Positions 6,550-53,974 of a stretch of DNA of 53,974 nt are shown one piece after another (position 1 is the first letter of the stretch; every line of letters begins with the position of its first letter). Made by a program: the position numbers and the translations under genes. Under the pieces are notes generated by a model. That model ran no database searches. It saw only the letters and a program-made list of their open reading frames with translations, and was not told the origin of the DNA. Origin of the DNA: Candidatus Gastranaerophilales bacterium (GTDB lineage: Bacteria > Cyanobacteriota > Vampirovibrionia > Gastranaerophilales > Gastranaerophilaceae); contig CALVEM010000016.1 in NCBI GenBank assembly GCA_944326605.1, forward strand, positions 1-53,974, read 5' to 3'.

Positions 6550-6620
6550 CCTTCCCTGAATAGGGAAGGTTAGGATGGGTTACAATCTATACCCACCCTT
6601 CCCTCCCTAATCAGGGAGGG
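6550..6620. mobile_element. 71-bp MITE-like element with inverted palindromic ends
   Basis: The left end is hairpin CCTTCCCTGAATAGGGAAGG followed by TTAGGATGGGT. The right end is ACCCACCCTTC followed by hairpin CCCTCCCTAATCAGGGAGGG. The two ends are inverted copies around about 10 bp. The same architecture occurs at 37558-37649, at 53638-53810, and around the DUF559 gene at 44745-45182. Confidence 0.7.
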
Positions 6621-6635
6621 TTAAAATAATATAGT

Positions 6636-6928
6636 CCTCTCTCCCCATTGGGGAGAGAGTTAGAGAGAGGGGCTTTAATAATTGCTGCTTAACGAAATAG
6701 TAATAAGACGAGTGCTCTTTGGGCGGTAAAATCAGATCCTGAAATGAGTTCAGAGCCTGCCCCGAATTTATTTCGGGGATGACATTAGGACGTAGGGTGG
6801 GATAAGCGTGAGCGTTCCCACCTAACAGTTTGTAGGTCGGATTTACTAATCCGACAAAATTTAGGTCTGTATGGTAGACCTGATTACTTTTACCCCTCAC
6901 CCTGACCCTCTCCCGCAAGGGGAGAGGG
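6636..6928. mobile_element. 293-bp element with about 36-bp terminal inverted repeats
   Basis: The left terminus carries hairpin CTCTCCCCATTGGGGAGAG and a GAGAGAGGGG box. The right terminus read in reverse complement carries CTCTCCCCTTGCGGGAGAG and a GGTGAGGGG box. The two align over about 36 bp as inverted repeats. Inside are other repeat families, so this is a nested, non-coding mobile-element relic. Confidence 0.65.
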
Positions 6929-32112: not shown

Positions 32113-32395
32113 GTTTTTTTAATCTGACTTCTCAATTTGAAATTTGTATCGCATTTTACCCCAGATATTCTGAAAAACAGTCATAATGTCATTCCGAACT
32201 TGTTTCGGAATCTCATGATTATAAGATCCTGAAACAAGTTCAGGATGACGATTTTAGCCATCTTTGGTGTAAGCTGCGATATAAATCCACTCAATTTTCG
32301 CTTGCATAATTTCAAAAATAGTGTATAATTATATGAATTAAAGGAATTTTGCAAAAGGTTTCTTTACAGTACCAACTTAAATCAGGAGAAGAAAA
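32113..32395. repeat. Intergenic region with the clearest GTCATTCCGAAC repeat
   Basis: GTCATTCCGAACTTGTTTCG and a paired CCTGAAACAAGTTCAGGATG at 32188-32249 form two facing hairpins. This is the best copy of the family in the window. A GTATAATTA box near 32321 may be the -10 of the next gene. Confidence 0.7.
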
Positions 32396-37462: not shown

Positions 37463-37801
37463 GTAACTAAATATCATAAAAAGCGGCTTATGCAACACCG
37501 TAAGCTGTTATGGGTGAAGCGGCTACACTCCTTCCCTCTCCTCGGGAGAAAATCAAGCCTTCCCTGATTAGGGAAGATTTGGATGGGTATTTACAAAAAT
37601 CGTCATTTGATTGTTACCCACCCCTACCCCCTCTCTGATAAGGGAGGGGATTGCTGCCACGCTCCTTCTTATATTTTCAGGTTAGTTAGTAGGTTGGGGT
37701 TTCTACCCCAACAAAATCATTTAATGTTGGGCTGAAAGCCCAACCTACTTCTAACGGCTTATGCAATCCCGTAAGCTGTGTCGGGTGAAGCGGCTACGCT
37801 T
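37463..37801. repeat. Composite repeat block flanked by 47-bp direct repeats
   Basis: No gene is seen. CGGCTTATGCAACACCGTAA plus GCTG...GGTGAAGCGGCTAC at 37484-37531 recurs at 37755-37801 with few differences. Between them lie a MITE-like element (37558-37649) and two hairpins of the TAGGTTGGGGTTTCTACCCC and TTGGGCTGAAAGCCCAA kind (about 37685-37747). Confidence 0.75.
37558..37649. mobile_element. 92-bp MITE-like element with inverted palindromic ends
   Basis: The left end is CCTTCCCTGATTAGGGAAG then TTTGGATGGGT; the right end is ACCCACCCCTACCCCCTCTC then TGATAAGGGAGGGG. Same architecture as at 6550-6620 and 53638-53810. Confidence 0.7.
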
Positions 37802-43943: not shown

Positions 43944-45137
43944 GACGCCATCAGAAGTTGTTTGCAGTTCATTTAGAATCCAATAATCATCTAAAGGGGT
44001 AAATCTGTTATCAATCATAAAATATGTTGAGCCTGAACCTGACATTACAGATTCCGGGTATAATTTTTTTATTGTCTTTAATTCATCATAATCATCAATT
44101 AAAGCCCATTCAAGATCATTTGCAAAATCCTCCCTTTTGCCGAATTCTGATTTAAATCCTGCTGACAGTTTTTCAGAAAATTTTGTGTAAGCTTCTTTTG
44201 CGCTGATCCCGAGTTTTTCAGGCTTTATCAAAGAAAGCGTAAATTCTTTAAATTCAAGCGGCTTTAAAATTTCTCCCCTGCCAGATGTCATCTGTCTTCC
44301 GCCTTCAAGGCAGAAGTTTAAATCGGAACCGAGTTTGGCGCAGAGAATATGAAGCTCTTTTCTTGAAAGAGGTCTGCCGCAAATTTCGTTCAATCCGTAT
44401 AAAGTTCCGGCAGCATCGGTGCTTCCGCCGGCAAGTCCGGCTGATACCGGAATATTTTTTTCTATATAAATATCAATTTTATGAGGTGTAAGATTTGTTC
44501 GTTCAATAAAAAGAACAGCAGCCTTATAAACAAGGTTTGTTTCATTGTAAGGGATGCCACTATTGTTTCCCGTAAGATTTATCGCAAATTTTTCTGCCGG
44601 AGTTTTTTTAATCGTTAAATAGTCATAGAGGCTGATAGTCTGCATAACGCTTTCAATATTGTGAAATCCGTCAGGACGTTTGCCTGTAACCTTTAGCGAC
44701 AGGTTAATTTTTGCAGGACACTGAATTTTTATTCCGTTCTCACTACCCTCCCTTGAGGGGAGGGTGGAAATCTTTGATTTCCGGGTGGGTGATTTAGTTT
44801 TATCGTTTAAATATTTCATAACACCTTCAATGTTATTGTATATATCGTTATTCCAAATTCTGATTACACTGTAGCCTTTATCGTTTAAATATTTATCGCG
44901 AATTTTATCGTATTTTTCGTTTTTACTATGCTGCCCTCCGTCAAGCTCTATGATAATTTTTTTAGTACAGCATAAAAAATCAACTATGTACTTTCCGATT
45001 GGTTGCTGGCGTCTAAACTTTAACCCGTTTAATTGTCTTTTTTTGAGATAATTCCATAAAATTGTTTCAGGCAATGTAGAATTATTTCTCATATCTTTTG
45101 CATTTTGTTTTTGTTGTTCAGGATGTTGAAATTTCAT
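43923..45137 (-). CDS. ispE: DUF559 endonuclease-like domain fused to IspE (CDP-ME kinase)
   Basis: A 404-residue chimera. Residues 1-113 are a complete DUF559 (VSR/restriction-endonuclease-like) domain: LKFRRQQPIGKYIVDFLC, IIELDGGQH and GYSVIRIWNND. Residues 114-135 (SPTRKSKISTLPSREGSEN) are translated repeat. From about 136 follows IspE of normal length: AKINLSLKV, the GHMP loop SAGLAGGSTDAAGT and MSGSGSTYFMI. IspE phosphorylates 4-diphosphocytidyl-methylerythritol in the MEP pathway. No start codon remains at the natural IspE N-terminus, but an in-frame ATG about 75 bp upstream, inside the DUF559 part, could give a separate IspE. Confidence 0.88.
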   Translation of the reverse strand: MKFQHPEQQKQNAKDMRNNSTLPETILWNYLKKRQLNGLKFRRQQPIGKYIVDFLCCTKKIIIELDGGQHSKNEKYDKIRDKYLNDKGYSVIRIWNNDIYNNIEGVMKYLNDKTKSPTRKSKISTLPSREGSENGIKIQCPAKINLSLKVTGKRPDGFHNIESVMQTISLYDYLTIKKTPAEKFAINLTGNNSGIPYNETNLVYKAAVLFIERTNLTPHKIDIYIEKNIPVSAGLAGGSTDAAGTLYGLNEICGRPLSRKELHILCAKLGSDLNFCLEGGRQMTSGRGEILKPLEFKEFTLSLIKPEKLGISAKEAYTKFSEKLSAGFKSEFGKREDFANDLEWALIDDYDELKTIKKLYPESVMSGSGSTYFMIDNRFTPLDDYWILNELQTTSDGVKKVPLS

Positions 45138-45182
45138 TTTTCACCCACCCTTTTACTTCCCCTCCCCTCGAGGGAGGGGAAA
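44745..45182. mobile_element. Candidate autonomous element: DUF559 gene between inverted palindromic ends
   Basis: The left end (44745-44791) has hairpin ACCCTCCCTTGAGGGGAGGG, a short spacer, then GGGTGGGTG. The right end, read inward, has hairpin CCCCTCCCTCGAGGGGAGGG, a spacer and GGGTGGGTG (45142-45150). They face each other with only the DUF559 frame between. The ends match those of MITE-like elements at 6550, 37558 and 53638. The right end supplies the ribosome binding site of the DUF559 gene and the C-terminus of rsmA. Confidence 0.65.
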
Positions 45183-46067
45183 AGTTTCATCACTTGAAAG
45201 GAGGGCGGAAATATTTGATTTTGTGATAGATGTTGTACCTTTCAATTCTTCTGACAATTTACCGAACATTTCTATTGAGAGTTTTTCTCCTCTTATGTTT
45301 TCATCCAGCCCGAGTTTTGAAAAAGCATTCAGTATATTTTCTTTTGAAAAACCGGCAGATAAAAGACAGTTTTTCAAAGTTTTCCGTCTTTGAGCAAAAC
45401 CTGCTTTTACTGTTTTTCTGAAATGAGTGTAGTCTGTCAAGTCAAGCAGAGGTTTTTCTCTGACCGTTAATTTTACCAGTGCCGAATTAACTTTCGGCGC
45501 AGGATAAAAAGCTTTTCTTCCGACTAATCTTAAAATTTCAACATCTGCCCAAAATTGCGACAATATTGTCAAAAGTCCGTACTGTTTGGAAGGAGAATTT
45601 TCATCTGCAGTCATTCTTTGTGCAACTTCCTGCTGCACCATAAGGATTATGTCTTTTATTTTGTTTCTGTTTCTGTTGTTTAAATCGTCAATTTCTCCGA
45701 GCAGGTGGGCAATAATCGGACTTGTAATATAGTATGGAATATTTGCAACTATTTTAATTTTCTCATTGCAAAGCTTTGATAAATCAGTTTTTAAAATATC
45801 TTTGTGGATAATTGTAAGATTAGAAGCGTCAATTTTTTCAAGTTCTTTTACGGCTTCCTCATCAAGTTCAATTGCAAAGACATGTTTGGCATGTTTGACA
45901 AGCTGTTCTGTTACAAATCCGACCCCCGGTCCGATTTCCACAACCGTATCATCGGGCTTGATATCTGCATAATCAATGATATCAGAGATTACCTGACCGT
46001 CAATCAGGAAATTTTGTCCCAGTCTTTTTTTTGTTCTGAAATATCTTGCTCTTTCGAAGTAGTTCAT
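45153..46067 (-). CDS. rsmA: 16S rRNA (adenine1518/1519-N6)-dimethyltransferase
   Basis: A 304-residue RsmA/KsgA methyltransferase. KKRLGQNFLIDGQVI, VVEIGPGVGFVTEQL and the catalytic VANIPYYITSPI are all present. ATG 46067 (MNYFERARYF) is chosen over a longer frame to 46097. The natural enzyme ends near FGKLSEELKG; the following tail (SSDETFPLPRGEGK) is encoded by the right end of the DUF559 element. ispE lies just downstream in the same direction, a pairing seen in other bacteria too. Confidence 0.94.
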   Translation of the reverse strand: MNYFERARYFRTKKRLGQNFLIDGQVISDIIDYADIKPDDTVVEIGPGVGFVTEQLVKHAKHVFAIELDEEAVKELEKIDASNLTIIHKDILKTDLSKLCNEKIKIVANIPYYITSPIIAHLLGEIDDLNNRNRNKIKDIILMVQQEVAQRMTADENSPSKQYGLLTILSQFWADVEILRLVGRKAFYPAPKVNSALVKLTVREKPLLDLTDYTHFRKTVKAGFAQRRKTLKNCLLSAGFSKENILNAFSKLGLDENIRGEKLSIEMFGKLSEELKGTTSITKSNISALLSSDETFPLPRGEGK

Positions 46068-46135
46068 CTTACCTATAATAATACCACACACAGGCAAATG
46101 TTTTAATAAAGTTTTTTTGTTAATTTTGTGGATGA

Positions 46136-53580: not shown

Positions 53581-53974
53581 CGCGTTCCCGCAGATAACTT
53601 TGGTATTTCAAATCTGTCCGTAATAACGAAAATAAAGCCTTCCCTCATTAGGGAAGGTTTGGATGGGTGACAATTAGATGCAAAGCTGTTATCAAAAATA
53701 AATTTTGTTACAATTTTACTAAAATAGCTATAAATGAAGCCGTCCTTCTGTCCTACGAACTTCTGTTCATCTAACAGTTACCCACCCCTATCCCCCTCCC
53801 GAATCAGGGATGAAGAAAAATTAAAATCCCCTCTCCTTGGAAGAGGGTTGGGGAGAGGGTGCTGCGCAGGATTAAATATAGAAATTTAATACCTCTTGTG
53901 TAAACTTGTGTTTAATTCCACAGGTTTTATATTGTTTTTCTAAAAACAATATGTTATAATAAAGAATGTTGTTA
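53581..53974. repeat. Repeat-rich right edge of the window
   Basis: No complete gene. After the MITE-like element (53638-53810) comes a CCCCTCTCC...GGAGAGGG hairpin unit (about 53829-53859), then TTTTATATTGTTTTTCTAAA with AACAATATGTTATAATAAAG (53926-53966), which holds an inverted repeat ATATTGTTTTT/AAAAACAATAT and a TATAAT box. This is probably the promoter of the next gene outside the window. Confidence 0.6.
53638..53810. mobile_element. 173-bp MITE-like element with inverted palindromic ends
   Basis: The left end is CCTTCCCTCATTAGGGAAGG then TTTGGATGGGT. The right end is ACCCACCCCTATCCCCCTCC then CGAATCAGGGA. Flanking the inner side, CAATTAG and CTAACAGTT extend the inverted repeat a little. 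The interior has no gene. Confidence 0.7.

Follow-up and report, generated by a model that had tools for sequence, protein, structure and literature searches.

In a bacterium of the Gastranaerophilales, a gene of the DUF559 family and the two inward-facing palindromic ends on either side of it appear to constitute a single compact mobile unit some 450-500 bp long. With a probability of about 0.7, DUF559 mobilises itself and gene-less derivatives of the element by cutting at the palindromic ends, probably through homing-like break repair. The gene and its matched ends occur together across phyla, and in one genome (G040) the unit is found at two sites with hairpins as its borders. Sister sites are empty or contain only a palindrome, and short gene-less elements (MITEs) represent left-right derivatives. 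To our knowledge, DUF559 is a very widespread family without a settled role. The original prediction, which named DUF559 as the mobilising nuclease of these palindromes, is supported by the enrichment of the ends, the empty sites, the duplication in G040, and the MITEs; we infer from these that DUF559 is the enzyme and that it cuts at the palindrome.

The window element and its nuclease

The window analysed here (53,974 nucleotides) is an entire contig of a 2.05-Mb genome, 850 kb of which was read in pieces. The DUF559 frame at 44745-45182 is flanked by two inward-facing ends, each composed of a hairpin and a GGGTGGGTG head, and all parts of this arrangement, as first proposed, were located (Table 1). 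Folding of the ends as single-stranded DNA gave z values of -4.1 and -5.0, and an Rfam scan of the window returned no family at gathering score. The placement of the gene between rsmA and ispE was also correct, but it is not a separate gene: its frame runs through the palindrome into ispE, producing a single 404-aa ORF in which the palindrome between DUF559 and IspE is translated in frame as ..KSPTRKSKISTLPSREG.. On the other side, rsmA runs into the rsmA-side palindrome and its protein acquires the tail ..PLPRGEGK; in two other genomes of the genus (G006 and G044) rsmA terminates right at ispE.

Table 1. Positions of the element, its neighbours and related repeats in the window
Feature	Position	Strand	Remarks
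Gene-less element (MITE)	6550..6622	.	both ends of the same family as those of the DUF559 element on contig C1 (L004)
Solo end	6633..6675	-	type flanking a third DUF559 element of the genome (L005)
Gene-less element (MITE)	37545..37650	.	left and right end of the C1 DUF559 element (L004)
DUF559-IspE fusion ORF, 404 aa	43923..45137	-	DUF559 nuclease at residues 8-109; IspE downstream in frame
Outer hairpin, ispE-side end	44745..44765	.	ACCCTCCCTTGAGGGGAGGGT
Small second hairpin, ispE-side end	44766..44782	.	GGAAATCTTTGATTTCC
G-rich inner head, ispE-side end	44783..44792	+	GGGTGGGTGA
DUF559 domain	44808..45116	-	PD-(D/E)xK/Vsr-like fold
Inner head, rsmA-side end	45140..45150	-	TTCACCCACCC; reverse complement GGGTGGGTGAA
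rsmA	45153..46097	-	C-terminus extended into the element, ..SSDETFPLPRGEGK
Outer hairpin, rsmA-side end	45157..45181	.	TTCCCCTCCCCTCGAGGGAGGGGAA
Gene-less element (MITE)	53630..53810	.	left and right end of the C1 element (L004), longer filler

A profile search of the 404-aa ORF identified PF04480 (DUF559; E = 3.5e-40, 136.7 bits against a gathering cut-off of 20.6) and a GHMP kinase domain (E = 1.4e-16). The predicted structure of the window protein (pLDDT 90) matched 3hrl (Z 14.2), I-Bth0305I (Z 11.4), and Vsr (Z 9.3), and more weakly TnsA (Z 7.1) and Hjc (Z 6.3). The match to I-Bth0305I (PDB 3r3p) covers 85 residues with an rmsd of 2.1 and a Foldseek E of 2e-5, and judging by the model this homing endonuclease would be the closest fold with a known function. 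NGO0050 of Neisseria gonorrhoeae (PDB 3hrl) shares both family (E = 2e-27) and fold with the window DUF559, but the title of its entry speaks only of a putative endonuclease and palindromes are absent from it. Residues E17, D46, E57, D59, and H63 are invariant in an alignment of 18 DUF559 sequences. Against the Vsr mismatch endonuclease family (TIGR00632) the protein scored 26.5 bits, below the cut-off of 97.85, and a PADLOC search yielded weak matches only, the best one of the window protein (E 4e-4) being to part of the 1078-position DpdF model. Proteins of approximately 1040 aa with a weak DUF559-like half-domain (L027, L029, L031-L034) are present family-wide; mobility was not seen for them.

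Matched ends and the owner of the palindromes

To compare the ends, the left 130-bp flank of each gene was aligned locally with the reverse-complemented right one, and a score of at least 15 was considered a match. In the host family, matched inverted ends were present at 33 of the 39 DUF559 genes and at 2 of 351 other ORFs from the same regions (Fisher p about 2e-39). Left and right flanks taken from different loci of this set matched in 11% of pairs, and the two ends of each locus match mutually far better than they match the ends of other loci. The 39 strong copies are distributed among 60 family genomes in a patchy manner, even inside the genus. A multi-phylum set, comprising Nitrospira, several classes of Proteobacteria, Rickettsiales, Aminicenantes, Chloroflexi, Spirochaetes, Patescibacteria, and others, gave 63 matched loci out of 80, compared with 0/331 ORFs and 2/619 random windows. 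This set was ranked by similarity to the query, and a second one was therefore drawn evenly across the phylum; among cyanobacteria outside the host family, 32/40 DUF559 loci had matched ends. The enrichment expected by the original prediction is evident, and massive, across phyla; matched ends are missing at 6/39 family and 17/80 multi-phylum genes. The genus also has small GIY-YIG nuclease genes of comparable size. These were considered as a parallel case and rejected, as they lack matched ends; they served instead as a negative control, in which 2/27 were matched, both A-rich and weak, and none reached a score of 20. The genome from which the window comes encodes five DUF559 genes, all with palindromes on both sides. 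At most of these loci the two sides match closely and the sequences differ among loci, and at one of them (L005) DUF559 is surrounded by a 40-bp perfect inverted repeat.

The number of CCCTCYC..GRGAGGG hairpins per genome tracks DUF559 (Spearman 0.67, p 4e-9, kinship uncorrected), with a median count of 0 or 1 in genomes without DUF559. The end sequence also co-varies with the DUF559 protein (79 loci; Mantel r 0.30, partial 0.27 after GC, 0/1000 permutations). Genome G053 contains just two such hairpins in all, and these are the ends of its single DUF559; genomes G028 and G046 contain many hairpins and no intact DUF559 in the assembly.

DUF559 could instead be a passenger captured between palindromes that are moved by RAYT (Y1/HUH) or another transposase, a reading we find quite improbable. 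RAYTs are known to mobilise REP palindromes (PMC2817692, PMC3116915), and a Y1 transposase was found in 23/60 family genomes. Against this, the relation between hairpins and DUF559 holds in genomes without Y1 transposase (p 2e-4, kinship uncorrected), the presence of Y1 adds nothing to the hairpin number among DUF559 genomes, and G020 carries 168 hairpins and two DUF559 genes with no Y1 match. Matched ends occur at 8/20 RAYT-type genes of the family; most of these are GTAG-REP ends, and the DUF559 type is absent among them, the heads of DUF559 ends being of GGGTGGGTG/GGGTGAGGG type without a GTAG tag. RAYT was accordingly rejected as the mobiliser of DUF559 ends in these genomes, and since the ends differ, the same genomes hold two separate nuclease-palindrome pairs. 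Moreover, if random passengers were involved, one would not expect to find the same gene in 60-80% of cases in different phyla.

Other palindromes were noticed in the window. A GTAG-type pair at 37687-37749 (gtaggttggggtttctaccccaac ... gttgggctgaaagcccaacctac) resembles the palindrome beside a RAYT-type gene (L326) of the same genome and represents a second nuclease-palindrome system. A third, CGTC-type REP-like family (GTCATTCCGAACTTGTTTCGGAATCTCA; GTCATTGCGGGCTTGACCCGCAATCGC) occurs at 6742-6790 and 32180-32250, as well as at locus L246; we know of no enzyme for it.

Mobility, empty sites and in-frame insertions

A duplication of the unit was found in G040, where two DUF559 copies lie 39 kb apart and are 92% identical over the gene. 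The copies are alike from left hairpin to right hairpin, and the similarity is lost at or just outside the hairpins. A short stretch outside the left hairpin is similar too and looks like a separate local repeat. A second local repeat (AGCTAAGTAGTTAAG-like) adjoins both copies (contig C3; L041, L042) and may be a preferred target.

Empty rsmA-ispE sites, the search for which had been proposed together with the original prediction, are present in the same genus, and the DUF559-ispE arrangement is not fixed in all relatives. The gap between the two genes is 70-76 bp in most of the examined genomes of the genus, three genus genomes have DUF559 at the site, and in G076 a solo palindrome joins rsmA and ispE into a single frame. 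At the hom-thrC site, a DUF559 element is present in the window's genome and a short palindrome in G044, with no insertion in G065 and G072. Likewise, priA is occupied by DUF559 in 3/59 genomes. A check of 63 loci for target-site duplication revealed none that was consistent, with a weak excess over cross-locus pairs; the absence of an evident target duplication would be easier to reconcile with homing or with chemistry like that of RAYTs than with a DDE transposase. At the rsmA-ispE junction of another species (G069, L246), an apparent N-terminal GIY-YIG fragment lies between GTCATTGCGGGC-type palindromes, and this junction may be a general insertion hotspot.

The gene-less elements point in the same direction. 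Short elements at 6550, 37558, and 53638 had been described as pairs of DUF559-type ends without the gene, which they are; the accompanying view that their ends are those of the window gene did not hold, the ends being those of the C1 element L004. They are MITEs by definition, i.e., short, gene-less, and bearing the terminal repeats of the C1 DUF559 element, and in two of them the left and right ends keep the orientation of L004. Since they carry L004 ends, the window MITEs would be derivatives of this sister element, located elsewhere in the genome, rather than of the window's own.

The same observations have to be weighed against the view that the palindromes are a target, i.e., that DUF559 is a free-standing homing gene invading pre-existing REPIN-like dimers moved by other means. 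The nearest fold of known function is indeed that of a homing endonuclease, gene-less left-right pairs exist whose gap the gene could have entered, and DUF559 lineages are faithful to their insertion sites. In addition, DUF559 ends come in two polarities, with the head inside or outside (head-outside ends are enriched among in-frame copies), which is not predicted by a strict end-recognition model and is more in keeping with an insertion target than with a fixed end. Nevertheless, G053 lacks further hairpins of this kind that the gene could have entered, the G040 copies share gene and ends as one block, genomes without DUF559 are mostly without such palindromes, and hom-thrC in G065/G072 suggests empty sites without a palindrome. 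Taken together, we regard this explanation as unlikely and prefer the reading in which gene and ends move as one unit.

About a fifth of the DUF559 copies reside within the reading frames of other genes. An open frame of at least 60 aa on both sides was found in 26/117 copies, the in-frame, translated palindromic insertion being a trait shared with Rickettsia palindromic elements (RPE). The hosts, assigned through Pfam matches or motifs, include PriA, Mfd, UvrD-like helicases, IspE, PrmA, and an M14 peptidase, as well as HsdS and restriction enzymes of type IIG and MmeI type; a class I tRNA synthetase is split by a DUF559 insert. The linkers are translated palindromes, e.g., PHPNPLPQGERE.. and ..LAPCGRGQGEG. 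Tails such as SPTRKS and PLPRGEG, which the original prediction had mentioned, proved real: translated-palindrome tails of this kind are present in 33/117 DUF559 frames as compared with 11/674 control ORFs. In priA, the insert occupies a variable linker directly before the ATPase motif. PriA-resident DUF559 copies are mutually close, and host-gene labels cluster on the DUF559 tree (0/200 shuffles as low), with occupied priA genes scattered among empty ones. Recent homing into priA was considered and rejected, as the insert is about as diverged as the host gene at the DNA level. With the two divergences about equal, site-specific gain on several occasions looks the same as an old insertion followed by several precise losses, and the scattered pattern reflects one or the other.

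The insertions scanned contained no Hint splicing domain. An N6_N4 methylase of the cyanobacterium G097 (L409) contains a DUF559-like domain surrounded by Hint-like motifs, and a Vibrio phage (MG592630, L419) has a DUF559-like stretch inside a protein annotated as hedgehog/hint; it is possible that in both cases DUF559 is used as the homing nuclease of an intein. Phages contributed five distant DUF559-like records.

In E. coli K-12, a palindrome of DUF559 type lies beside ycjD, a DUF559 gene (L195 4190-4245), and ycjD-type palindromes occur at further E. coli sites, with a median of 4 places per genome for a query containing the palindrome. Two E. coli cases were rejected as empty sites: the ycjD-less strains examined have an efflux operon in place of ycjD, which is not a simple empty site, and the solo palindrome at tkt-ypfG alternates with REP-like alleles, with no empty allele.

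The DUF559 protein is under strong purifying selection, with dN/dS of 0.04 in the G040 pair and 0.09-0.16 in three other pairs of copies; the coding differences in G040 are nearly all silent, and therefore the protein has been kept functional. This selection would also suit a host-serving nuclease with a Vsr-like role in mismatch repair or a role in defence, situated in repeat-rich recombining regions where the palindromes are terminators or scars. In line with it, most of the ycjD region is present in 3364/5426 E. coli genomes, and Caulobacter VsrA, a DUF559 protein with a proposed mismatch repair role, is responsible for the SOS response in a mutant that lost its cytosine methylase (PMC12907096). 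A host function is, however, hard to reconcile with the patchy presence within the genus, with copies in frame inside essential genes and their ends translated, with the mutual match of left and right ends, and with the lack of such ends at GIY-YIG nuclease genes of the same genomes; we consider it highly improbable.

A model of DUF559 mobility and comparison with known systems

In the model that we favour, mobilisation by DUF559 itself, the encoded protein of about 115 aa, which resembles Vsr and homing endonucleases, most probably recognises the palindromic ends of its own element, consisting of a hairpin and a G-rich head. It would cut at these ends or at a matching target, and the unit would be copied to new places by homing-like break repair rather than by transposase-type strand transfer. 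It would also act in trans on gene-less end pairs and solo ends. The element also survives in frame inside genes or fused to them, as in the case of ispE, because translation can pass through either end without meeting a stop.

If correct, three questions would merge into one testable system: the role of DUF559, the origin of the many bacterial GGGAGAGGG/CCCTCTCC palindromes, and the presence of short palindromes in frame in repair and other essential genes, as noted for REPs (PMC3733652) and RPEs (PMC10969869). A mobile element with a nuclease of about 115 aa as its sole enzyme would be added, and with it a nuclease-palindrome pair that shares its genomes with RAYT/REP. Odd annotations, including PLPRGEG-type tails and gene fusions like DUF559-IspE, would also be explained. 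Such a small DNA-inserting enzyme may possibly be useful. The broadest version of the proposal, for which we see even odds, is that proteins of the DUF559 family (COG2852-type) act as the enzymes of a class of mobile DNA found throughout bacteria, distinct from the DDE, HUH, tyrosine, and serine systems. In this class, a single nuclease of Vsr/EDxHD fold would mobilise palindrome-ended units, seed a large share of the orphan C-rich/G-rich palindromic repeats of bacteria, and, copied in a homing-like way, spread in frame to preferred positions within essential genes.

A full-text search of open-licence papers found no published link between DUF559 and palindromes. Segments carrying a DUF559 gene together with a transposase have been described as recombination hotspots in Legionella (PMC12308824). 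The closest analogy is offered by REPtrons (RAYT/REP), in which a small nuclease gene likewise lies between two inverted palindromes, gene-less solo or paired palindromes occur in the same genome, and palindromes are also found within DNA-repair genes (PMC2817692, PMC3116915, PMC3733652). This is an analogy and not membership: no Y1 (HUH) domain is present between the window palindromes, where the gene is PF04480, and the DUF559 enzyme is a PD-(D/E)xK/Vsr-like nuclease whereas RAYT belongs to Y1/HUH. DUF559 palindromes lack GTAG and have a GGGTGAGGG-type head, and the window's genome contains both systems, each with palindromes of its own. REPs comprise GTAG and CGTC families, of which GTAG is linked to RAYTs and CGTC is reported to lack a dedicated transposase, and REPs are found within repair and tRNA synthetase genes (PMC3733652). 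The CGTC REPs resemble the DUF559 repeats in being abundant short palindromes, some of them in repair genes, but tag and stem differ, and their lookalikes in the window form a family separate from DUF559 ends. RPEs are similarly inserted in frame in unrelated protein genes and translated; in the part of the review consulted (PMC10969869) they are described as short repeats, with no mobiliser named.

With the EDxHD/Vsr-like homing endonuclease I-Bth0305I, the DUF559 element shares the catalytic fold, recurrent positions in conserved genes, and empty sisters, but it has no surrounding intron or intein; instead it carries palindromic ends and is accompanied by MITE derivatives. DUF559 homing into an empty allele would be compatible with the site fidelity and the empty sisters. 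Inteins with a nested homing endonuclease also bring a nuclease in frame into essential proteins such as helicases; the DUF559 insertions scanned differ from them in having no Hint domain and in having linkers that are translated palindromes. The DUF559 element combines REPtron-like working with a homing-endonuclease-like enzyme, is a member of neither family as defined, and there is a real chance that it represents a class of its own.
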